DNA of 64,000 bases from Pedobacter sp. SYSU D00535 (GTDB lineage: Bacteria > Bacteroidota > Bacteroidia > Sphingobacteriales > Sphingobacteriaceae). The position numbers and the translations under genes are program-made. This document shows, piece after piece, positions 37,760-47,301 of this stretch. The notes beneath the pieces are model-generated. The model ran no database searches, had not been told where the DNA came from, and saw only the letters and a program-made list of their open reading frames with translations. Position 1 is the stretch's first letter, and each line of letters opens with the position of its first letter. The stretch is taken from positions 62,001 to 126,000 of the forward strand of contig NZ_JAFEWD010000005.1 in NCBI RefSeq assembly GCF_017355855.1, in the 5' to 3' direction.

Positions 37760-40162
37760 CTACTTAAATGAGAATTTATAGTTGACAGCGGGCAGTACCG
37801 GCAGCAGCGTAACGGATTTGGGACGAATAGACACTTTTTGTTTTTCCAGATCTCCTTCAGCTAAGAAGTAAATGTAAACAGGATTTTGGCGGTTGTATAC
37901 ATTGTAAACGGAGAGAGAAAGCTCTGTGCTGAACTTCCTGTTGTTTCTGATTTTATACGTCGCTGCTAAGTCCATCCGGTGATAGGCCGGCATTCTGTTG
38001 CCGTTAAACGGGCCATATTCGTTAACGATGTTCCCACCGATGAGATAACGACTTGCGGGTTTCGTGTAGGCATTGCCCGTTGCATAAGTGAAGGATGCAT
38101 TTACGTTCCATCGGCTGGTGAGGGGGTAGCTCGAAACGATCGAGAGATCATGGGTCCGATCATATTTAGCAGGGAAGTAGTTGCCTCCATTGATCCCTTC
38201 GAATCTTCTTTCGCTTTTCGCCAGGGTGTAGCCAATCCACCCCGTTAATTTACCCGTGTTTTTTTTGAGGAAAAATTCGGCTCCATAAGCGCGGCCGGAA
38301 CCAAACAGTAAATTTTCTTCAATCTTCAGGTTATCAATTAAGTTCATGATTCCTCCTGAGAATTCAACCAGTCCCGACATTTTTTTATAGTACAGATCAA
38401 TATAGGATTCATAGCGATTATCCTTTCCGGAATCCCGGAAGTAACCCACAGAGGCCTGTAGCCCTTTCTCGGCGGGAATACTCCGCAGTGAGGGCATCCA
38501 GAAGTCAGCAGGAAAGTTGACTGCAGTAACCGAAATAAGATGTAAGGGTTGGATATTTCGCGAAAGCGAAAGTTTTAGGGAGGAGTTTTGGTTAAGCAGC
38601 TGACGTAATGTAAGTGACGGTTCGATATAACCAAAGGCCGACACTGCCTCGTTTTTTCCGAAGCTAACTGTTTCCTGCTCCTCGTTTGTTAGTTGATAGG
38701 GCCCTAACTGCCGATAGTAGGTAAAACGTGCCCCGGCGTTAATCCCTGTTTTTTCGGTAACTGAGAATTCGTCGCTTAAAAAAAACGAGCTTTCGTCTGA
38801 GTGATAGATGTTAGGGAGGCCGAAATCATATTCCGTATCCGAAGCGGAAACGGAGGGGGTGTTAGGTTTGAACCGGTGACGCGTGTACTGTAATCCCGTT
38901 TTCAACTGATGCTTTTGGAAGTACAAGGCAAGCACGCTTTTCCAGTTAATATCTCTGATCTGAGAAGTAATGTTCGCGTCATATTTGTCTTGCGTCATTC
39001 CGAAGTTGAAGTTGTAACCGCTGTAGCTTGCTGTGTTTTGTAATACTGCTCTATCTTCCAAAATACTCTTCCAACTAAACGAGTAGGCTGAATTTTTCCA
39101 GTTCATGCCATTGCTGATATTGAACCTTCTGATGCCGAATCCAAAGCGGTCGCCGCCATGATAAGCAGAAAGGTTGAGGGAGTTTCTGCTCCCGATCCGG
39201 GCATTCGAGTTCAAATTCAAATCGTGAAAGTCGTAGCGCATGTCGTTGAACGAGCTTCCGTTCCCGGCGAGACTGTTTACCAAAGGCCAAACGGTTTGAT
39301 TCATAAAGGTTTTCCTTGCCGAAACACTAAGGGACCAGTTGCTGGTAATGGGAAGAGCAAGCGTTGTGTTGGCGGCGAGAATACTTACATCTCCCCGGAT
39401 ACTAAGGGAGTCTTCTACCTTCCGACTGCTATTCACTTCGATGATTGACGAGAGGCGCCCACCATACTCCGAAGGGATGGCCGATTTATAAAGTTTTACC
39501 TGGTCGATCGCTTCTGCGTTAAAAACAGAGAAGAAACCAAGCAGGTGAGAGGGGTTGTAAATGGGAGCTTCGTTAAAGAGCGTGAGGTTTTGGCCGGCGG
39601 TTCCACCCCTGACATAGAAGCCCGAATTTCCCTCTCCGCCCTTGCCGCTGCCAGGAAGCGTCTGCAGCGTTTTTAATGGATCTGCCTGGCCGAGGAAGGC
39701 GGGTTGTTTACGAAGGTCTTCCCTGGTAAGTGTCTGCACGTTTCCACTGACGCTCCTGATGTTGCTTTTACGCGGACTGCCCGACACCACGACCTCGTTC
39801 ATCAAGGCCATTTTAGGATGGAGATATAAGTCCTTGTTTTCGTCTTTCTGTAGGATTAGAGATATCTGCAGGGTATCGTAAGCAATGTGGGTAAGGGTTA
39901 GAACGTGTTCCCCTTCATTCAGCACGAGATTGTAATAGCCCCGCTCGTCGCTGGAGGTGGTTTTCTGCCTTGTTTTTATCGTAGCGTTAGCCACTGGTGC
40001 TTTGGTTGACGCATTGTATAGGTGTCCCTCTATCTGATAGCTGTTCTGCGCGTTGGTTTCGCTCAAAAACAGGGTAAGCAGCAAGAGAAATGCAAATTTC
40101 AAGGAAAGGAGATAGAGAAAAGGTGATTTTCTTATAAGTGACAGGAACTGAAATGTGTACAA
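37760..40162 (-). CDS. TonB-dependent receptor paired with DUF4249 lipoprotein
   Basis: An 800-residue receptor (if begun at 40162). A hydrophobic signal segment (SLKFAFLLLLTLFLSETNAQ) is followed by a carboxypeptidase-regulatory-like domain (about 42-125, GHLYNASTKAPVANATIKTR), a plug (NEVVVSGSPRKSNIRSVSGNVQ ... GFYVRGGTAGQNLTLFNEAPIYNPSHL) and a barrel ending in VNYKFSFK, with the required terminal aromatic strand. There is no ATG before residue 100: the start must be TTG at 40162 or TTG at 40102, the latter giving a compact signal peptide KFAFLLLLTLF. An exact promoter lies about 20 nt before 40162, which excludes a longer leader. Substrate unknown. Confidence 0.85.
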   Translation of the reverse strand: MYTFQFLSLIRKSPFLYLLSLKFAFLLLLTLFLSETNAQNSYQIEGHLYNASTKAPVANATIKTRQKTTSSDERGYYNLVLNEGEHVLTLTHIAYDTLQISLILQKDENKDLYLHPKMALMNEVVVSGSPRKSNIRSVSGNVQTLTREDLRKQPAFLGQADPLKTLQTLPGSGKGGEGNSGFYVRGGTAGQNLTLFNEAPIYNPSHLLGFFSVFNAEAIDQVKLYKSAIPSEYGGRLSSIIEVNSSRKVEDSLSIRGDVSILAANTTLALPITSNWSLSVSARKTFMNQTVWPLVNSLAGNGSSFNDMRYDFHDLNLNSNARIGSRNSLNLSAYHGGDRFGFGIRRFNISNGMNWKNSAYSFSWKSILEDRAVLQNTASYSGYNFNFGMTQDKYDANITSQIRDINWKSVLALYFQKHQLKTGLQYTRHRFKPNTPSVSASDTEYDFGLPNIYHSDESSFFLSDEFSVTEKTGINAGARFTYYRQLGPYQLTNEEQETVSFGKNEAVSAFGYIEPSLTLRQLLNQNSSLKLSLSRNIQPLHLISVTAVNFPADFWMPSLRSIPAEKGLQASVGYFRDSGKDNRYESYIDLYYKKMSGLVEFSGGIMNLIDNLKIEENLLFGSGRAYGAEFFLKKNTGKLTGWIGYTLAKSERRFEGINGGNYFPAKYDRTHDLSIVSSYPLTSRWNVNASFTYATGNAYTKPASRYLIGGNIVNEYGPFNGNRMPAYHRMDLAATYKIRNNRKFSTELSLSVYNVYNRQNPVYIYFLAEGDLEKQKVSIRPKSVTLLPVLPAVNYKFSFK

Positions 40163-40181
40163 AGTCCGGATTTGAATTTGT

Positions 40182-40212
40182 CAAAAATACGAAAGTAGCA
40201 GAGGCTGGCCAA
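40182..40212 (-). promoter_or_regulatory. Promoter of the receptor/DUF4249 operon
   Basis: On the minus strand TTG (40212-40210), a 20-nt spacer and TATTTTTG (40189-40182), an exact TAnnTTTG. The predicted start of transcription near 40178 leaves only a short leader before the first TTG codon. Confidence 0.6.
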
Positions 40213-40431
40213 TACTTATTATTGGGTATAAGGGATGGTGGAGGTAGCGAAGCCAGGTAGGTGAGAAGCGGTAGCTCCGGTCTAAGCTAAACCGGATTGC
40301 AGCGGTAGCCCGCAGCCGGAGGAGGAGGATTGGGAAAGGAGGCGAGGACTATAGCGGAAAGCCGGACTGCAGCAGATCAAAGTGCCGTCGCCCGTTTTCA
40401 AAAAAAGTTTTACCATGTCTTATATTATAGC
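40213..40431. other. Intergenic between divergent receptor and rpsF units
   Basis: About 220 nt with a purine-rich, relatively GC-rich stretch (GGAGGAGGAGG-type runs near 40320-40350) and a short inverted repeat CCGGT/ACCGG near 40278-40300. No ORF or RNA gene recognised. Confidence 0.35.
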
Positions 40432-40439
40432 TACATTTG
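40432..40439 (+). promoter_or_regulatory. Promoter -7 box of the rpsF operon
   Basis: TACATTTG is an exact TAnnTTTG, identical to the boxes of the first two tRNA-Phe genes downstream, and lies 44 nt before the rpsF ATG. A TTCAAAAAAA run upstream is also shared with those tRNA promoters. Confidence 0.55.
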
Positions 40440-40483
40440 CGATCCCTAATTGCAGGGTAAATAATTGAAAATTAATTAATAAA

Positions 40484-40849
40484 ATGCAACAGTACGAAAC
40501 AGTAATCATTCTGACCCCGTTGTTGTCTGACGAAGCTGCGAAAGAGGTAATTGCCAAATTCCGCGGTATCCTTACAGATAACGGAGCCGAAATTATCAAT
40601 GAAGATAATTGGGGTTTGAAGAAACTAGCGTATCCGATCGAGAAAAAATCTACAGGATACTATCACCTAACTGAATTTAAGGCTCCGGGTGAATTAATCA
40701 GCAAACTGGAACTTGAATACAAACGTGATGAGCGTGTAATGCGTTTTCTGACCGTTGCGCTTGACAAGCATGCACGTGCTTACAGTGAGAAAAAACGTAG
40801 CGGTGCTTTCAACCAGAAAAAACAACAAACTGAGGAGGTAGCTGGATAA
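40484..40849 (+). CDS. rpsF: Small ribosomal subunit protein bS6
   Basis: A 121-residue bS6 of the 30S subunit. The family pattern YETVIILTPLLSDEAAKEVIAKF, then ENWGLKKLAYPIEKKSTGYYHLTEF (observed as EDNWGLKKLAYPIEKK) and YKRDERVMRFLTVAL are clear. A lysine-rich C-terminal tail (KKRSGAFNQKKQQTEEV) extends past the core, as in many Bacteroidota. It is the first gene of the rpsF-rpsR-rplI operon and overlaps rpsR by 1 nt (TAATG). bS6 and bS18 form a dimer in the ribosome, which fits coupled translation. Confidence 0.96.
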   Translation: MQQYETVIILTPLLSDEAAKEVIAKFRGILTDNGAEIINEDNWGLKKLAYPIEKKSTGYYHLTEFKAPGELISKLELEYKRDERVMRFLTVALDKHARAYSEKKRSGAFNQKKQQTEEVAG

Positions 40850-41112
40850 TGGCAAAAGATCAAATTCAATACGTAACTGCCCCTAAAGTAGAGGACAACC
40901 GTAAAAAGTATTGCCGTTTCAAGAAAAACGGTATCAAGTATATCGATTACAAAGACGCTAACTTCCTTTTGAAGTTTGTGAACGATCAGGGTAAAGTATT
41001 ACCTCGCCGTTTAACTGGTACTTCTTTGAAGTTTCAGCGTAAAGTAGCTCAGGCTGTTAAACGTGCTCGTCATATCGGTATTTTACCTTATGTTACTGAT
41101 TCATTAAAATAA
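40849..41112 (+). CDS. rpsR: Small ribosomal subunit protein bS18
   Basis: An 87-residue bS18. The diagnostic KKYCRFKKNGIKYIDYKDANFLLKF and RRLTGTSLKFQRKVAQAVKRARHIGILPY segments are present. The single Cys in KYCRFK is retained, but the zinc-binding Cys set seen in some bS18 is absent, so this is a zinc-independent (C-) form. The start codon overlaps the rpsF stop; rplI follows after 16 nt, which includes a GGAGGT Shine-Dalgarno, unusual in this genome. Confidence 0.96.
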   Translation: MAKDQIQYVTAPKVEDNRKKYCRFKKNGIKYIDYKDANFLLKFVNDQGKVLPRRLTGTSLKFQRKVAQAVKRARHIGILPYVTDSLK

Positions 41113-41128
41113 TTGGAGGTAAAGCGAA

Positions 41129-41572
41129 ATGGAAATTATTTTAAAACAGGATATTAAAAACCTTGGCGAGAAAGACGATATCGTAAATGTAAAGCCAGGT
41201 TACGGTCGCAATTACCTTATCCCACAAGGATTTGCAGTTTTAGCAACTTCTTCTGCAAAGAAAGTGCTTGCTGAAAACTTGAAACAAGCGCAATTCAAAC
41301 AAGACAAAATCAAAAATGATGCGCTTGCAATTGCTGCTCGTTTAGAAAGCGTAAAATTGACTATCGGTGCTAAAGCTGGTGAAAGTGGTAAGATCTTCGG
41401 AGCTGTGAACACTATTCAAGTTGCTGATGCACTTAAGAAAGAAGGTTTTGAAGTGGATCGTCGCAGAATCACTTTCGAAACTGAGCCTAAATTTGTTGGT
41501 GAGTACATCGCTAACTTAAACTTACATAAAGAAGTTAAGGTTCAGGTTCCTTTTGAAGTTGTTGCTGAATAA
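41129..41572 (+). CDS. rplI: Large ribosomal subunit protein bL9
   Basis: A 147-residue bL9. The N-terminal domain signature MEIILKQDIKNLGEKDDIVNVKPGYGRNYLIPQG is exact, followed by the long connecting helix (ASSAKKVLAENLKQAQFKQDK) and the C-terminal RNA-binding domain (KAGESGKIFGAVNTIQVADALKKEG). Last gene of the rpsF operon. TTGGAGGTAAAG before the ATG is a good Shine-Dalgarno. A strong terminator with a GAAA tetraloop follows 27 nt after the stop. Confidence 0.96.
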   Translation: MEIILKQDIKNLGEKDDIVNVKPGYGRNYLIPQGFAVLATSSAKKVLAENLKQAQFKQDKIKNDALAIAARLESVKLTIGAKAGESGKIFGAVNTIQVADALKKEGFEVDRRRITFETEPKFVGEYIANLNLHKEVKVQVPFEVVAE

Positions 41573-41599
41573 GCAGAACTACGAAAGATAAATATTTGG

Positions 41600-41635
41600 A
41601 AATGCCCTTGAGAAATCGAGGGCATTTTTATTTTT
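41600..41635 (+). terminator. Rho-independent terminator of rpsF-rpsR-rplI
   Basis: A 12-bp stem (AAATGCCCTTGA / TCGAGGGCATTT, one G-U) capped by a GAAA tetraloop and followed by TTATTTTT. Its T tract ends only 4 nt before the mtgA start codon. Confidence 0.92.
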
Positions 41636-41639
41636 GGGC

Positions 41640-42368
41640 ATGGCAAAAAGGAAGAGCAGCAGCAGGTCGGGAAGAAAAGGAGGGAATAGGGTGAGTGGTT
41701 TTTTTAGAGCCTTGAAGAAGGTAGTTCTCTGGTTCTTTATCGTCACGATAGCCTGGGTGCTCCTTTACCGCTTTCTGAACCCGCCCGTAACTTGGCTGAT
41801 GATGCAACGCGCCATAGAACGGAAATGGGATGGAAAGAGCTGGAAGATAGAGAAAGAATGGAAGAGCTTTGATGAGCTTTCCGATAATCTAAAACTTGCT
41901 GCTGTAGCCGGGGAGGACGCTCATTTTTTGGAACATTGGGGCTTCGATATGAAGTCGATTCAGAAAGCTTATGCAAAAAATAAAGCCGGGAAGCCGATCC
42001 GTGGTGGCAGCACAATCAGTCAGCAAACCGCCAAAAATGTTTTTTTGTGGCCGGGAAGATCCTGGATCAGGAAGGGTTTTGAAGCCTATTTTACCCTGTT
42101 AATAGAACTGCTTTGGAGTAAAGAGCGAATTTTGGAGGTTTATTTGAACGTGGCAGAGATGGGGGATGGGATCTATGGTGCTGAAGCCGCAATGCAGCAT
42201 TACTTCAACAAGTCGTCTGAAAAGATGAGCAAGAGGCAGGCCGCCCTGTTAATCGCTGTCCTGCCGAACCCACTTCGATGGTCGCCTGCAAAGCCAACCA
42301 AATACATCTATTATAAACAGTACTTAATTTTAAGGAATATGCGTAACATCAGGAAGCTTAACTTTTAA
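41640..42368 (+). CDS. mtgA: Monofunctional biosynthetic peptidoglycan transglycosylase
   Basis: Polymerises lipid II into glycan strands at the inner membrane. The 242-residue GT51 protein has a basic cytoplasmic start (KRKSSSRSGRKGG), one transmembrane helix (VVLWFFIVTIAWVLLYRFL), the catalytic-glutamate motif AAVAGEDAHFLEHWGFD, RGGSTISQQTAKNVFLWPGRSW, a second-glutamate motif KERILEVYLNVAEMGDGIYGAEAA, and RQAALLIAVLPNPLRWSP. No transpeptidase domain follows. Start ATG 41640; a TTG two codons earlier is possible but unneeded. The rplI terminator lies immediately before, so it may rely on its own promoter or on read-through. Confidence 0.94.
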   Translation: MAKRKSSSRSGRKGGNRVSGFFRALKKVVLWFFIVTIAWVLLYRFLNPPVTWLMMQRAIERKWDGKSWKIEKEWKSFDELSDNLKLAAVAGEDAHFLEHWGFDMKSIQKAYAKNKAGKPIRGGSTISQQTAKNVFLWPGRSWIRKGFEAYFTLLIELLWSKERILEVYLNVAEMGDGIYGAEAAMQHYFNKSSEKMSKRQAALLIAVLPNPLRWSPAKPTKYIYYKQYLILRNMRNIRKLNF

Positions 42369-42396
42369 GCTGTCTGTAGTTGCTTGCTTCCGTTAG

Positions 42397-42876
42397 TTAA
42401 ACCACTCCTGTAAATACCCGGGCATGCCAGCTGTTTTTGAAGGGAACCTCCCAGTTGGTGTCCAATTCTTTCCTTGTTTGTACGAGGTTGTTAAACACAA
42501 CGGTATTCTCGTTTACCTCACCCGCGGCTATGCGTTGTTCAAACTCGTCTCTGCTGCAGGATAGCACCTCGCCATTCTGACGGAAGGCAATGTTGAGGCG
42601 ATCAAACAGGTCCACGTGATATTGTTGTTCTATCTGTTTCATCAGCTGGACAGATTTGTCAATAGAGCAGCCTGTTGCTCCAGCCTGTGCTTCGTCAACC
42701 ATAAGTATAATAAACCGATTATAGCGTACTTCTGCCTGTGCTGCAAGTTGATGACCGTGCGCTAACCACTCACCCGTAAAGGTGTGAAGCAGCGATTCTA
42801 TTTCCTGCTGCTCAGCAGCAGTGAAGGGCCGGTTGGCCTGGTAGATCCAAACTCTGGAATTCTCAGAAATTTTCAT
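42397..42876 (-). CDS. Conserved cytosolic protein of unknown function (often mislabelled ABC transporter ATPase)
   Basis: A 159-residue soluble protein with no signal peptide or Walker motifs. The opening WIYQANRPFTAAEQQEIE, the segment QAEVRYNRFIILMVDEAQAGATGCSIDKSV and the end FNNLVQTRKELDTNWEVPFKNSWH are a conserved Bacteroidota pattern. Databases often carry it as 'ABC transporter ATPase', but no nucleotide-binding motif is visible, so that name is not supported. The invariant-looking GCSIDKS segment with a Cys may be functional. Function unknown. Confidence 0.8.
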   Translation of the reverse strand: MKISENSRVWIYQANRPFTAAEQQEIESLLHTFTGEWLAHGHQLAAQAEVRYNRFIILMVDEAQAGATGCSIDKSVQLMKQIEQQYHVDLFDRLNIAFRQNGEVLSCSRDEFEQRIAAGEVNENTVVFNNLVQTRKELDTNWEVPFKNSWHARVFTGVV

Positions 42877-42928
42877 TAATCAAATTTACTAAATTCTTAA
42901 ATTGTAGGCGTTTTTTAGTCCTTCAATC

Positions 42929-43396
42929 ATGTTGGCGAAATGTAAAAAGCCTTTCTTTCGTTTGCTCCTGTTCTGTAGTCTGGCTCTGTTGCTGTTGTCG
43001 GCGTTTGGGGAGAGAACTAATTTTAGTGATCAGCTGCGTTGGATCCAGCAATGTCTGAGCACTTGCTTCGACGCCGCTGTTGGGAAGCAGAAGTTGAAGA
43101 AGTGGGATTTAGTTGTTACCGAAAAAGGTTTTTTTCGACTACGAAAGTACTTTCCAAACGGGAAGCAAGAATACTTTTCTTTTCATCTGAAGCGATTTGA
43201 TGAACTAAGTTTTCTTGGAACGAGCAGCGTAGGGGAGTTGGTTATTAAAACGGTATCCGACGATATAATCGTACAAACGTATAATGACCCCAGAGGTAAT
43301 ATTGACTCGATGACTTCTGTGTTAAAACTACCGGTTGTACATGTAGAGCCGGAGCAGCTAGATAGCCTGGAAACAGCCTTAGAGGCACTTAAATAA
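42929..43396 (+). CDS. Small exported or membrane-anchored protein of unknown function
   Basis: A 155-residue protein with a basic start and one hydrophobic segment at residues about 9-26 (FRLLLFCSLALLLLSAF), either a signal peptide or anchor. The rest is a mixed alpha/beta domain with KKWDLVVTEKGFFRLRKYFPNGKQEYFSFHLKRFDELSFLG, where the 'F.RL.K.F.NGKQEY.SF' pattern suggests a small beta-sheet domain. I do not recognise a family. It is divergent from the preceding gene (52-nt gap) and stops about 50 nt before a separate promoter/terminator unit. Confidence 0.65.
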   Translation: MLAKCKKPFFRLLLFCSLALLLLSAFGERTNFSDQLRWIQQCLSTCFDAAVGKQKLKKWDLVVTEKGFFRLRKYFPNGKQEYFSFHLKRFDELSFLGTSSVGELVIKTVSDDIIVQTYNDPRGNIDSMTSVLKLPVVHVEPEQLDSLETALEALK

Positions 43397-43448
43397 TTGC
43401 GTTCGGTAATAGACTTTTAAGTTTTGGTTAAAAAAGCCGTAGAAAGTA

Positions 43449-43479
43449 TTGCATTGGTAATATAAATGTCATAACTTTG
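43449..43479 (+). promoter_or_regulatory. Promoter of a candidate small RNA
   Basis: TTG at 43449-43451, a 20-nt spacer and TAACTTTG at 43472-43479, exactly TAnnTTTG. No ORF starts downstream before the terminator. Confidence 0.55.
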
Positions 43480-43483
43480 GTTT

Positions 43484-43577
43484 TGAAGTTATTGCTCTCA
43501 TAGCTTGCTTCAAATTAATGATTAATGTGTTAAAATAAGATGGCTCATTCTATCCACTAGAATGGGCCACTCTTTTT
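43484..43577 (+). ncRNA. Candidate small non-coding RNA, about 95 nt
   Basis: The stretch between a consensus promoter (43449-43479) and a strong terminator (43541-43578) contains no credible ORF. A transcript would begin near 43484 and end in the T tract after a 12-bp hairpin. Its 5' part is AU-rich and unstructured (TTATTGCTCTCATAGC), a layout typical of small RNAs acting by base pairing. It lies just upstream of the tRNA-Phe cluster. It is not recognisable as 6S, 4.5S, tmRNA or RNase P RNA. Existence is inferred from signals only. Confidence 0.45.
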
Positions 43578-43578
43578 T
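43541..43578 (+). terminator. Strong terminator before the tRNA-Phe cluster
   Basis: TGGCTCATTCTA / TAGAATGGGCCA (12 bp, one G-U, 5-nt loop) followed by CTCTTTTTT. It is 145 nt past the nearest upstream gene. Confidence 0.85.
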
Positions 43579-43703
43579 AAAGACAACTCCCGGAATTTCC
43601 TCATCAAAAGAAACTTTTATTGCTAATGGTAGGAGCCGTTATCTATCGATTTTACGAGCAACAGGATATTTTCAAAAAAAATTTAATAATTAAAAAAACC
43701 CAG

Positions 43704-43711
43704 TACATTTG
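43704..43711 (+). promoter_or_regulatory. -7 box of tRNA-Phe copy 1
   Basis: TACATTTG, exact TAnnTTTG, with its last base 17 nt before the tRNA 5' end. A GCAATCCCAAAAGGGA leader follows, shared by all three copies. Confidence 0.65.
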
Positions 43712-43727
43712 CAATCCCAAAAGGGAC

Positions 43728-43800
43728 GGTATCATAGCTCAGTTGGTAGAGCAAAGGACTGAAAATCCTTGTGTCGCTGGTTCGATTCCAGCTGATACCA
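43728..43800 (+). tRNA. tRNA-Phe (GAA), copy 1
   Basis: A complete 73-nt cloverleaf: acceptor GGTATCA / TGATACC, D stem GCTC/GAGC, anticodon stem AAGGA/TCCTT with loop CTGAAAA (anticodon GAA), variable GTGTC, T stem GCTGG/CCAGC with loop TTCGATT, discriminator A. CCA is not encoded. The gene is flanked by its own promoter and terminator. Confidence 0.97.
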
Positions 43801-43808
43801 CAGAAAGA

Positions 43809-43837
43809 AACCTCAGAGCGATCTGGGGTTTTGTTGT
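43809..43837 (+). terminator. Terminator of tRNA-Phe copy 1
   Basis: AACCTCAGA / TCTGGGGTT (9 bp, one G-U, GCGA loop) then TTGTTGT. Confidence 0.75.
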
Positions 43838-44006
43838 ATTAGAGCCGTCTTTTTATTGCCGCTAAAAAATTTACGATCTTTTAGGGCGGGGGAAATGCGT
43901 TTTGGATTGGGGATCTGACCTGGCGGGTTCCGGATATTACTATCCATAAGCCCTAGGCTTGCGGATAACTTTTTAGATTTTTTATTTCTCTTTTCAAAAA
44001 AAGGCT

Positions 44007-44014
44007 TACATTTG
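44007..44014 (+). promoter_or_regulatory. -7 box of tRNA-Phe copy 2
   Basis: TACATTTG, exact TAnnTTTG, again 17 nt before the tRNA 5' end. Confidence 0.65.
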
Positions 44015-44030
44015 CAATCCCAAAAGGGAT

Positions 44031-44103
44031 GGTATCATAGCTCAGTTGGTAGAGCAAAGGACTGAAAATCCTTGTGTCGCTGGTTCGATTCCAGCTGATA
44101 CCA
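44031..44103 (+). tRNA. tRNA-Phe (GAA), copy 2
   Basis: Identical over all 73 nt to copy 1, 303 nt downstream of it. The -7 box, leader and terminator are also duplicated, while the spacer before them is not, indicating duplication of a compact promoter-tRNA-terminator module. Confidence 0.97.
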
Positions 44104-44111
44104 CAGAAAGA

Positions 44112-44140
44112 AACCTCAGAGCGATCTGGGGTTTTGTTGT
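44112..44140 (+). terminator. Terminator of tRNA-Phe copy 2
   Basis: Same AACCTCAGA / TCTGGGGTT hairpin with GCGA loop and TTGTTGT tail as copy 1. Confidence 0.75.
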
Positions 44141-44466
44141 TTAAAGTCTCCTCCGGAACAAAAGCGGCAGCTATAACACATCTCTCAGTTATTATACAGC
44201 TTCCGTATACTAAAGCACAATCGCAATTGCGGAGTCAGTCCACGTTTGCTCTCCAAAACCTGCACTCATGGTGCTCACAACGTGCACTCACCGTGCACGC
44301 AAGCAGAGCCAAAAGAGAACAGGAGCAGGGGGGGAACATCTGTAGTGGTGCTATAGATACCCCTGCAATTTCGAGGTTTCCATTTTAATGTGCTAGACAT
44401 GAATGGGTTTTGACATCCATCAATATTATTTTGAAGTGCTTAGTCAGCCAATTCAAAAAAAAACCT
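44141..44466. other. Spacer between tRNA-Phe copies 2 and 3, no gene recognised
   Basis: About 325 nt without a credible ORF; a 104-codon open frame here overlaps the tRNA and shows no protein-like pattern. Near 44265-44300 the stretch has GTGCTCACAACGTGCACTCACCGTGCAC-type repeats of GTGCAC/GTGCTCA, of no evident function. Confidence 0.4.
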
Positions 44467-44474
44467 TATAATTG
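44467..44474 (+). promoter_or_regulatory. -7 box of tRNA-Phe copy 3
   Basis: TATAATTG (7 of 8 to TAnnTTTG), again ending 17 nt before the tRNA 5' end. Confidence 0.55.
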
Positions 44475-44490
44475 CAATCCCAAAAGGGAC

Positions 44491-44563
44491 GGTATCATAG
44501 CTCAGTTGGTAGAGCAAAGGACTGAAAATCCTTGTGTCGCTGGTTCGATTCCAGCTGATACCA
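44491..44563 (+). tRNA. tRNA-Phe (GAA), copy 3
   Basis: Identical over 73 nt to copies 1 and 2. The leader CAATCCCAAAAGGGAC matches copy 1, but the terminator is unrelated, so the third copy has a different downstream history. Confidence 0.97.
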
Positions 44564-44569
44564 CAGAAT

Positions 44570-44606
44570 AAAAGCCCATCTTTCAATAGAAAGGTGGGCT
44601 TTTCTA
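44570..44606 (+). terminator. Terminator of tRNA-Phe copy 3
   Basis: AAAAGCCCATCTTTC / GAAAGGTGGGCTTTT, a 15-bp stem with one G-U and a short AATA loop, followed by CT. Different from the terminators of the other two copies. Confidence 0.8.
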
Positions 44607-44832
44607 TTGGAAGGTGATTCCTTCTTTAAATGTGAGTAATGTTGTTTTAGGGATACCACTCTTCTCTTAGGGGTACAGCGGGTTGGCTAATTCAACTATG
44701 CTTTAGACATCCCAGTGACTACGTCGGCTTGTTTTTCTCGCTGCAAACAATAAAATCAAGTCGAAGATCCATTAATATTCGATAAATTTAAACCTGGACG
44801 TCGAGCTGGAATGCTCATCACCTGAAACGATC

Positions 44833-45732
44833 ATGAGAAGATTTTTGAAGATTACTATTTTTTTACTTGGAGGCAAGGTTTCCTTATTTGCTCAAACTGC
44901 AGTTATTCCGCTTTATCCAAATGCTGCACCAGGTAGTAAGCCAACTCCTTCCGATTATGTGGAGCATACCGGTAACGGCTGGACAACAAAGGTAAGTCAG
45001 CCTACTCTTACACCGTTTTTTCCCCCTGATGGGAAAGCAAGCGGAGCGGCCATTATCGTAATTCCCGGTGGAGGGTATGCTGGACTAGCAGTTAACCATG
45101 AGGGAGCCGAGGTTGCAAAGCGATTTGCTGAGGTTGGTATAACCGCTTTTCTACTAAAGTATCGACTCCCCAGCGACTTAATTATGCGCGATCGCTCCAT
45201 CGGTCCTCTTCAGGATGCGCAGCGAGCCCTGGAACTGGTCAGGTCAAGGGCTTCAGAATGGAAGTTAGACACTTCAAAAGTAGGGGTGATCGGATTCTCG
45301 GCGGGCGGCCATCTGGCGTCTACCCTTGGGACGCACTACACGAAATCGCACATAGGCAAATCGAATGTAAGTTTAAGACCCAGCTTTATGATGCTTATTT
45401 ATCCTGTTATTTCAATGGGTGAGTTTACACATGGCGGCTCGAAGGAAAATCTGATCGGGAAGGACGCCTTTCAACAGCAGATTGATCTGTTTTCCAATGA
45501 AAAACAGTTGAGACAGGACACACCGCCTGTCTTCATCTTACACGCACAGGATGACAAAGTAGTTCACGTAAATAACAGTCTACTGTTTTACCAGGAAGTA
45601 CTGAAGCACGGAGGTAAGGCAGAGATGCACCTGTTTCAGGCAGGAGGGCACGGCTTTGGCTTGAACAATAAGGCTGGCGGACAATGGTTCGAAAGTAGTT
45701 TGAACTGGCTAAGAATTAACAAGTTTTTTTAA
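44833..45732 (+). CDS. Secreted alpha/beta hydrolase, acetyl-xylan esterase-like
   Basis: A 299-residue exported esterase-type hydrolase. Signal peptide ends near SLFAQ. The oxyanion-side motif IPGGGYAGLAVNHEGAEVA (residues about 77-95), nucleophile elbow GFSAGGHLAS (Ser about 159), acid in LHAQDDKVV and His in GGHGFG complete a catalytic triad. The pattern 'PGGGY..LA..HEG' with 'FSAGGHLA' is that of the BD-FAE/'xylanase B' esterases found in xylan loci, acting on acetyl or feruloyl groups. Being beside GH10, CE15 and GH115 genes, deacetylation of glucuronoxylan is the likely role. It converges on the GH10 gene across a shared hairpin. Confidence 0.82.
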   Translation: MRRFLKITIFLLGGKVSLFAQTAVIPLYPNAAPGSKPTPSDYVEHTGNGWTTKVSQPTLTPFFPPDGKASGAAIIVIPGGGYAGLAVNHEGAEVAKRFAEVGITAFLLKYRLPSDLIMRDRSIGPLQDAQRALELVRSRASEWKLDTSKVGVIGFSAGGHLASTLGTHYTKSHIGKSNVSLRPSFMMLIYPVISMGEFTHGGSKENLIGKDAFQQQIDLFSNEKQLRQDTPPVFILHAQDDKVVHVNNSLLFYQEVLKHGGKAEMHLFQAGGHGFGLNNKAGGQWFESSLNWLRINKFF

Positions 45733-45770
45733 GATAGATTCGACGGGAGGTCAGCGGGCAGTCCAACTTT

Positions 45771-45812
45771 TACTTGGAACCGATCCTTTTAAAGACCGGT
45801 TCCAAGTATCTT
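45771..45812. terminator. Bidirectional terminator between esterase and GH10 genes
   Basis: TACTTGGAACCG / CGGTTCCAAGTA, a perfect 12-bp inverted repeat with a 14-nt loop, flanked by AACTTTT on the left and TCTTTGTTT on the right, so T-rich tails exist on both strands. Confidence 0.7.
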
Positions 45813-45815
45813 TGT

Positions 45816-46907
45816 TTAAAACTTTACAACCTCCCAGTAGGCTTTTTTTGGCTGGAGGTTGGTGTCAAATAGCAAAGGATAATTTTTTCGCCCCCGGGCG
45901 TCTAACCAGGTGTATTTATCAGAAAGGTTCCAGAAAGTGACGCCAGTGATGTTTTTCTGGTATTGGCGAAACACATCGAATACCATCTTGTATTTTTCGA
46001 GTTGCTTCTGCTCCATCTCGGGAGTAAAAGGAGCAACTTGCTTTTGTTGCTCTCCACGAATAAGCTGTCCGCCCTGATTTCCTGAATATACCGAAATATC
46101 CAGCTCGGTAAATTGGATTTGCAGTCCCAGTGAAGAGAATAGTTCGATCGACTTTACAAGCTCCTCACGGCTGGGCGTATTGATAGACCAGTGAGCTTGC
46201 AGACCAACTCCATGTATGGGTACTCCTTTAGCCAGCAAATTTTTCAACAGTTTATAGATCTTTTCCCTCTTCGCGGGTATTTCGGTGTTGTAGTCATTGT
46301 AAAAAAGCACAGCTTTGGGATCTGCCTCATGTGCAAACCGGAATGCTTGCTCAATGAATTCCTCGCCCGTGATCTGGTACCATTTGGAGTTTCTGAAAAA
46401 GGAACTATCGTCAGCAATTACTTCGTTCACCACATCCCATGCATAAACCTTACCCTTGTAGCGCGACACGACTGTGTGAATATGTGTCCTCAACCTATCC
46501 AGTAAGACCGCCTTGCTAACGTCGTTTCCCAGGGAGTCCTTGAACATCCAGGAAGGAGCCTGGGTATGCCAGCACAGCGTATGGCCTCGCATCTTCAAAT
46601 TGTTCCGTACGGCAAAGTTGACGATGGAGTCAGCGTCTCGCCAGAAGTACCGGTTTTCGGCAGGGTGAATCGGTCCCATTTTCATTGCATTCTCAGCGGT
46701 GATGCTGTTGAATTGTTTCAGAATGAGATTACTTTCCGCACCGCCCTCGAGGTCAGAGGGCCGCACTGCAACCCCTATAGGGAAATAGTTCTGATAATAA
46801 TCCTTCAGTCCCTGCGAAGCCTCGTCGCCAGGGAGGGGACTGGCAGCAGTAAGCCCTATTCCAATAATGGCCAGACCAATAGCGATCTTCTTTCTGTATC
46901 TGTTCAT
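45816..46907 (-). CDS. Endo-1,4-beta-xylanase, GH10
   Basis: A 363-residue secreted xylanase (signal KIAIGLAIIGIGLTAAS). GH10 motifs are complete: NSITAENAMKMGPIHP, RGHTLCWHTQAPSW (substrate-binding His/Trp), acid/base E162 in WDVVNEVIAD, YNDYNTE, GLQAHW, nucleophile E268 in IQFTELDISV, and TFWNLSDKYTWL. It cuts internal beta-1,4 links of the xylan backbone and tolerates side chains, giving substituted oligosaccharides for the GH115 and GH43 enzymes nearby. The signal lacks a Cys lipobox, so periplasmic or extracellular location. Its promoter has TTG-N18-TAGTTTTG spacing. No CBM is attached. Confidence 0.95.
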   Translation of the reverse strand: MNRYRKKIAIGLAIIGIGLTAASPLPGDEASQGLKDYYQNYFPIGVAVRPSDLEGGAESNLILKQFNSITAENAMKMGPIHPAENRYFWRDADSIVNFAVRNNLKMRGHTLCWHTQAPSWMFKDSLGNDVSKAVLLDRLRTHIHTVVSRYKGKVYAWDVVNEVIADDSSFFRNSKWYQITGEEFIEQAFRFAHEADPKAVLFYNDYNTEIPAKREKIYKLLKNLLAKGVPIHGVGLQAHWSINTPSREELVKSIELFSSLGLQIQFTELDISVYSGNQGGQLIRGEQQKQVAPFTPEMEQKQLEKYKMVFDVFRQYQKNITGVTFWNLSDKYTWLDARGRKNYPLLFDTNLQPKKAYWEVVKF

Positions 46908-46933
46908 CCTAACTTGTAATTTATCAATCTACT

Positions 46934-46962
46934 CAAAACTACCTGGATTAGATAAAACGCAA
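46934..46962 (-). promoter_or_regulatory. Promoter of the GH10 xylanase gene
   Basis: On the minus strand TTG (46962-46960), 18 nt, then TAGTTTTG (46941-46934), an exact TAnnTTTG. The leader would be about 22 nt. The TTG is embedded in AAGACATTGCG, which resembles part of the GACATTTG motif in the GH115 and HTCS leaders. Confidence 0.55.
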
Positions 46963-47301
46963 TGTCTTGTTTGAGCATATTAAGGGTACAGATGTTTAGA
47001 GAAGGGAATCATTGTAATTGGTGTACACTTCGACACCTGTTGACTAGCAGGAGATTGAAGGATTACTTTAGCCTCCATTGAAGGTGAGAGGCAGCCTTGC
47101 AATGTCATCATCGATTTGAGTTATTGCTTTTGAACATCCGGACGGTTTTTTTGCACAGGAGTGTTTCTTATTCGCTATTGTGATTGCTACATTAGATCCT
47201 TCCTGCAAACTGTTGTTCAGCCGGAAACTAACCGTCCCCGCCTACCTTCGATGGCTTGCAGCAGAATGGAACGACGTAATAAAACCAGTTAATCGTTAAT
47301 A
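46963..47301. other. Intergenic between divergent GH10 and CE15 genes
   Basis: About 340 nt without an ORF. It carries TTTGAACATCC at 47129-47139 and a run of seven T followed by GCAC, similar in part to the GH115 leader. The CE15 promoter is expected here but no exact TAnnTTTG was found on the plus strand. Confidence 0.4.

Follow-up and report, generated by a model that had tools for sequence, protein, structure and literature searches.

A Candidate Genus-Specific Small RNA Gene Upstream of tRNA-Phe in Desertivirga

The conserved RNA predicted upstream of tRNA-Phe in the genome of a soil-dwelling Desertivirga is very probably, judging from its sequence, a new small RNA of a familiar class, that of the short regulatory RNAs. 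Promoter, spacing, 5′ hairpin, AU-rich core and terminator are kept in all three Desertivirga genomes examined, namely G000, which carries the window (the whole 64,000-nt stretch of DNA that was analysed) on its contig C15, G001, and G002, which is Desertivirga arenae. A preliminary description had proposed a small RNA here from a promoter and a terminator with no gene between them, and this reading is supported and strengthened by the conservation of all five parts. The best joint explanation, and on balance a likely one, is a genus-specific, stand-alone, intergenic small RNA gene.

Promoter, Terminator and Predicted Transcript

The unit lies where it had first been placed, directly upstream of three tRNA-Phe genes, and comprises the following features together with their immediate context.

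42929 to 43396, + strand: upstream 155-aa gene, context and not part of the unit; no Pfam or NCBIfam match
43449 to 43451, + strand: -33 element TTG; spacer to the -7 box 20, 19 and 20 nt in the three genus genomes
43472 to 43479, + strand: -7 box TAACTTTG (TAnnTTTG); TAACTTTG, TATTTTTG and TAGTTTTG across the three genomes, each 4 nt before the predicted +1
43484 to 43578, + strand: predicted small RNA of about 94 nt; +1 taken from the promoter position and end from the terminator, the 3′ end lying somewhere in the T run
43484 to 43512, + strand: 5′ hairpin, arms 43484-43491 and 43505-43512, 8 consensus pairs, from fold and alignment
43513 to 43540, + strand: AU-rich core; 43513-43536 unpaired in the fold, the last four bases able to pair with the T tail
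43518 to 43538, + strand: candidate six-codon frame ATG ATT AAT GTG TTA AAA TAA (MINVLK); MINVLK, MINVLK and MINVLI in the three genomes
43541 to 43569, + strand: intrinsic terminator hairpin, 12 pairs (5 G-C), loop of 5
43570 to 43578, + strand: terminator tail CTCTTTTTT
43704 to 43801, + strand: first tRNA-Phe gene with its own TACATTTG box, context; box 43704-43711, tRNA 43728-43801

The promoter TTG-N20-TAACTTTG reported at 43449-43479 is indeed present and fits the Bacteroidota promoter. For Flavobacterium psychrophilum, TAnnTTTG is reported at -12 to -5 (PMC9723704), and this rule places +1 at T43484, which is the base immediately 5′ of the hairpin GAAG in all three genomes. Promoter and predicted start retain a nearly unchanged geometry across the genus, TTG standing 19-20 nt before TAnnTTTG in every copy, and the unit therefore has, on the evidence of its letters, the promoter expected of an intergenic small RNA. 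A good promoter match is not evidence by itself, since TTG-N18-21-TAnnTTTG occurs four times in the window compared to a Markov mean of 4.6 (sd 1.7), which is the chance level for the motif alone. Less common is such a promoter with a strong terminator 25-150 nt behind it: the 64-kb window has one instance, and a sample of 800 kb from this genome has three. A sigma-70 promoter scan, which does not cover other promoter types, does not list TTG-N20-TAACTTTG; between 40000 and 47000 it returned 15 promoter-like sites compared to 11.3 (sd 3.1) in shuffles.

At the other end, the 12-pair hairpin at 43541-43569 with its T tail begins 57 nt past the predicted +1, as the preliminary description had it to within a few bases, and is one of 11 terminator-like sites in the interval 40000-47000, for which shuffles gave 6.7 (sd 2.9). 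It has the form of an intrinsic terminator kept by compensating changes: three of the ten counted pairs have changed on both sides, and 96.7% of the helix cells are paired. The predicted length of the RNA, about 94 nt, agrees with the roughly 95 nt originally implied. The fold of 43484-43576 reaches -27 kcal/mol (z = -4.46, equalled by none of 200 dinucleotide shuffles), with the terminator contributing much of this energy.

Structure and Covariation

The 5′ half of the RNA had been thought unstructured, which proved wrong, as a hairpin begins at the predicted +1 itself. The free fold of the window copy contains the outer six pairs of this hairpin plus a 3-pair inner stem, and the loop UGCYCUCAUA is conserved. 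Across the three sequences 95.8% of its helix cells are paired, with one mismatch in the window copy, and the first pair, at the predicted +1 base, reads U-A, G-U and A-U. Taking both helices of the three-sequence alignment together, 96.3% of cells pair, and each helix has one pair broken in one species. Four of the 18 helix pairs have changed on both sides and still pair, a number reached by 12 of 500 shuffles and compared to 0-1 in slid controls; the covariation is thin at three sequences, and the consensus structure was drawn by hand from the same sequences on which it is scored, which favours it.

The AU-rich core at 43513-43540 is probably the pairing region of the RNA. Its consensus AAUGAUYAAUGUGUUAAWAUAAG is kept, and the stretch 43514-43546 is identical between G000 and G002, while G001 differs from the other two by a change at 43540 and, within 43514-43539, by two substitutions and a gap of 2 nt.

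Conservation within Desertivirga

The unit is situated upstream of tRNA-Phe in all three Desertivirga genomes examined, D. arenae included. Conservation of promoter and stem in relatives, on which the preliminary description had hung its proposal, was found in each of them; the covariance search of related genomes that it had also suggested gave high scores in all three, with conservation seen only within the genus. The RNA is 80% (G000-G002), 72% (G000-G001) and 68% (G002-G001) identical, compared to shuffled maxima of 57-58%. For the upstream flank the figures are 54, 54 and 42% and for the downstream flank 50, 20 and 19%, none exceeding its shuffled maximum, and the low downstream values are explained by a G001 piece of just 20 nt. 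With a 321-nt query from G000, blastn found G002 at 81% identity over query positions 48-150, from the promoter to the first terminator arm. In G001, blastn returned no match to the RNA at E 0.001, yet the tRNA-Phe locus there contains the unit, and all three copies can be aligned along the full RNA.

A covariance model gave 127.1, 121.4 and 111.9 bits for the three Desertivirga genomes, these being the sequences that built it, with one high-scoring copy per genome. Among 120 relatives including the genus, none of the 117 outside genomes exceeded 38 bits (best 37.0, rescored 37.7). The ten alignments inspected among these out-of-genus matches of up to 37.7 bits resemble generic terminators, and one lies inside a frame open for 200 codons; all were rejected. 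The search filter was stricter over 40 genomes and can lose weak matches, so that distant homologues may exist. Of 80 named loci that carry the neighbouring gene, 68 were scored with the model, and among these that of D. arenae alone scored high; it was likewise the only one among all 80 to contain the core with up to four substitutions. The core pattern with up to three mismatches matched seven of 399 family genomes, two of them Desertivirga, and missed the copy in G001. The five matches outside the genus have by eye no hairpins, unlike the RNA, and were treated as chance; a reversed pattern gave no matches in the family genomes, so a few of the five could exceed chance. A plasmid collection contained no match to the unit.

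Relation to Known RNA Families

At gathering score, Rfam recognized three tRNAs only in the whole window. With E up to 10, the region 43390-43730 yielded 11 matches, none of which had an E of 1 or less or came anywhere near its gathering score, and with E up to 1 the tRNA-Phe loci of G001 and G002 gave the tRNAs and three sub-threshold matches, none of them on the RNA. In the literature searched, no paper mentioned Desertivirga, and no report of the RNA was among the titles listed.

6S-Flavo RNA (RF01685) is, like the RNA here, a small RNA of the Bacteroidetes and of similar length (108 model positions). A long bulged helix is a feature of 6S RNA. The RNA upstream of tRNA-Phe folds without one and gives no match to the 6S-Flavo model, neither in the window at gathering score nor within 43390-43730 at E up to 10. 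This bears on a different mode of action, in which the RNA would work through protein binding, as a decoy or in a 6S-like manner, instead of by pairing. The conserved UGCYCUCAUA loop and the core could both be protein sites, and a 6S-Flavo search found no such RNA elsewhere in the three genus genomes, although it found none in control genomes either, so that absence is not shown. Given the lack of a 6S-type fold and match, action through protein is considered unlikely.

Parallels to a pairing RNA are found in Bacteroides. GibS of Bacteroides thetaiotaomicron is, according to its report (PMC7366714), likewise intergenic, with its own promoter and a potential terminator, and shares with the RNA here a conserved single-stranded stretch, conservation within a genus and a host without an obvious Hfq homologue. 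It differs in its length of about 145 nt, in a single-stranded 5′ end that serves as the seed and in a non-canonical promoter motif, whereas the RNA here has a hairpin at the predicted +1 and its single strand in the middle; the likeness is drawn from description. The FopS family of Bacteroides, as described in PMC11697453, resembles the RNA here in being short, in having a conserved seed that is single-stranded and in ending with a Rho-independent terminator. However, the family counts 14 members in B. thetaiotaomicron and its 5′ stretch is single-stranded, compared to one high-scoring copy per genome and a 5′ hairpin here, and membership in that family was rejected. Rfp18 of F. psychrophilum, a small RNA from the same phylum, is also conserved within its genus, and its host uses TAnnTTTG promoters; it belongs to another genus and has predicted protease targets (PMC9723704), and here too the likeness is drawn from description.

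The Six-Codon Frame and the tRNA-Phe Genes

The original statement that no ORF fits the unit holds for ordinary protein-coding frames, as none of at least 60 aa overlaps 43397-43619, but a frame of six codons from ATG to TAA is present and is the only one. Such a frame occurs in 4.7% of random regions of the same composition. With this frame the unit could be read as a leader whose tiny ORF is translated, acting as an attenuator or as a micropeptide gene: ribosomes at the TAA would cover the terminator stem and transcription would read through into tRNA-Phe. The frame is present in all three genomes, one of its two changes being synonymous, its stop lies two bases before the terminator stem, and the unit precedes tRNA-Phe in every case. 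Survival of the frame nevertheless proves little, because two random substitutions leave it open about 48% of the time; the second change replaces lysine by isoleucine, the hexapeptide has no Phe codon, and the nucleotide identity of the core in two species is what a constraint on the RNA would also give. In addition, tRNA-Phe is immediately preceded by a TACATTTG promoter box, both here and in the other-genus loci inspected (five of eight such loci, the five whose sequence was inspected). A leader function is accordingly judged rather improbable. Still more doubtful is a bifunctional RNA in which the hexapeptide MINVLK/MINVLI would be encoded within the mRNA-pairing core, ribosomes would modulate the terminator and the translation state would set how much transcription reaches tRNA-Phe; this is very unlikely. 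Pairing between the RNA and tRNA-Phe was no better than that with shuffled tRNA.

The tRNA-Phe unit itself is triplicated at 43690-44600 in copies of about 148 nt, the others being 95% and 81% identical to the first, with spacings of 303 and 460 nt. An exact TACATTTG box stands before the first two copies but not before the third, and short G+C-rich repeats TGCACTCATGGTGC, followed by GTGCACTCACCGTGCAC, were seen by eye between the second and third copies at 44261-44298. ARAGORN detected one tRNA-Phe in the G001 locus and one in that of G002.

Independence from the Upstream Gene

In the order of the locus, a transglycosylase gene (PF00912) comes first, then, on the opposite strand, a conserved gene of 159 aa, followed by the 155-aa gene, the RNA and tRNA-Phe. 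The genes at 42397-42876 and 42929-43396 are conserved in neighbouring genera, and neither has a Pfam or NCBIfam match; relatives of the former number at least 572 candidate stretches in genome contigs.

The 155-aa gene is on the same strand as the unit and the terminator starts about 145 nt past its end in the window, so the terminator could belong to a 3′ UTR of this gene, the promoter being a chance match. The G001 locus nearly refutes this. No tblastn match to the 155-aa protein and no such ORF were found there, the distance between the -7 box and the start of the 159-aa homologue is just 168 nt, and promoter, hairpin, core and terminator are nevertheless intact, which makes the RNA independent of the upstream gene. 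Conversely, homologues of the gene with 54% and 48% identity adjoin tRNA-Phe without the unit at two Mucilaginibacter loci, and the 3′ UTR reading is held to be very unlikely. Paradesertivirga mongoliensis also has the homologous gene (52%), with no unit behind it in the locus examined. A conserved DNA element without a functional transcript, for example a regulator site, is highly improbable, for although conservation by itself is no proof of transcription, both helices covary at paired positions and promoter and terminator are conserved in order.

Proposed Mode of Action and Candidate Targets

For the small RNA, action in trans by base pairing without Hfq is the mechanism favoured by the analysis, with fair though not strong confidence. 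Transcription would start at about T43484 from a housekeeping-type promoter and stop at the terminator, yielding an RNA of about 94 nt in which a hairpin at the first base is followed by an AU-rich core, for the most part single-stranded, and by the terminator hairpin. The core, and possibly the UGCYCUCAUA loop, would pair with mRNAs near their start codons, and would do so without Hfq, as the extended AU-rich seed of GibS does. The analogy with Bacteroides GibS makes the core the likely seed: the GibS report describes a conserved long single-stranded seed that pairs with the initiation regions of target mRNAs (PMC7366714). The same source states that Bacteroides is without obvious Hfq and ProQ homologues and that its small RNAs are AU-rich, the intergenic ones averaging about 35% GC (PMC7366714); the RNA match here has 31%. 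Northern blots there detected nine of 11 tested candidates, eight of those nine having both a TSS and a terminator (PMC7366714). No match to Hfq was found in G000 by a search that found Hfq in five of 14 control genomes.

The complement of the core with up to two mismatches occurs 36 times in the three genomes, three of these being the RNA itself, compared to 16 for the reversed pattern, a control that differs from it in dinucleotide content; the excess (33 besides the RNA versus 16) is a hint of targets at best. Inspection of 27 of the 33 non-self matches gave three single-genome complements at start regions, which may be regarded as weak target leads: two in G002, at genes for an SSF symporter and for a Met-zincin protease, and one in G000, at pafA, the gene for alkaline phosphatase. 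The symporter site, on contig C2 of D. arenae, is perfectly complementary to the core over 21 nt and ends a few bases short of the start codon; the G001 orthologue, although 89% identical, does not have it, and the relatives in G000 reach no more than 47-48% identity. In whole-RNA duplex energy the symporter lead (-37.2) is not the best, as a paralogue without the complement scores -41.9. The complement in the protease gene lies directly before the start codon and that in pafA at codons 4-9. Within the three genomes, none of these leads is kept in orthologues. Pairing is mildly better than in shuffles for the pafA orthologue of G001 (-12.7 versus -8.9, sd 2.1) and for a distant protease relative in G000 (-12.2 versus -8.0, sd 1.9), and no better than in shuffles for pafA of G002 and two proteases of G001.

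Among 623 start regions, called mechanically from about 18% of the genome, 23 showed core complementarity at a score of at least 20 compared to 20.1 (sd 5.3) for shuffled cores, and one match reached at least 30, as did seven of 60 shuffles; complementarity to the core is thus not enriched in these regions. Contig C12 of G000 and contig C1 of G001 share a weak core-complement site antisense to a frame of 183/188 aa. Contig C20 of G000 carries two core-complementary sequences about 5 kb apart, each between a gene end and a terminator-like hairpin, one behind an ammonium transporter gene (PF00909) and one behind a 283-aa frame.

Across the three genomes the loop complement TATGAGRGCA matches 62 times, including the three copies of the RNA itself. 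As an anti-start-codon element it was rejected, since the 30 matches examined out of these 62 (one being the RNA of G001) included no convincing gene start, and the longest frame at these matches is internal to a long open frame. Several matches are dispersed repeats containing TATGAGRGCA, seen by eye as a AAAAAGCCCTG-type in G002 and a CCTGCCCGGC-type in G000.

Significance

The known Bacteroidota small RNAs found in the literature searched are from Bacteroides and Flavobacterium. The RNA upstream of tRNA-Phe adds a clearly bounded candidate whose promoter, start and structure are conserved and whose host genome has no detectable Hfq, and offers a test case for the action of an AU-rich seed without this chaperone. 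Since the neighbouring gene adjoins tRNA-Phe at the two Mucilaginibacter loci and the unit is missing there, it looks like a lineage-specific gain, which would be useful for studying the origin of small RNA genes.
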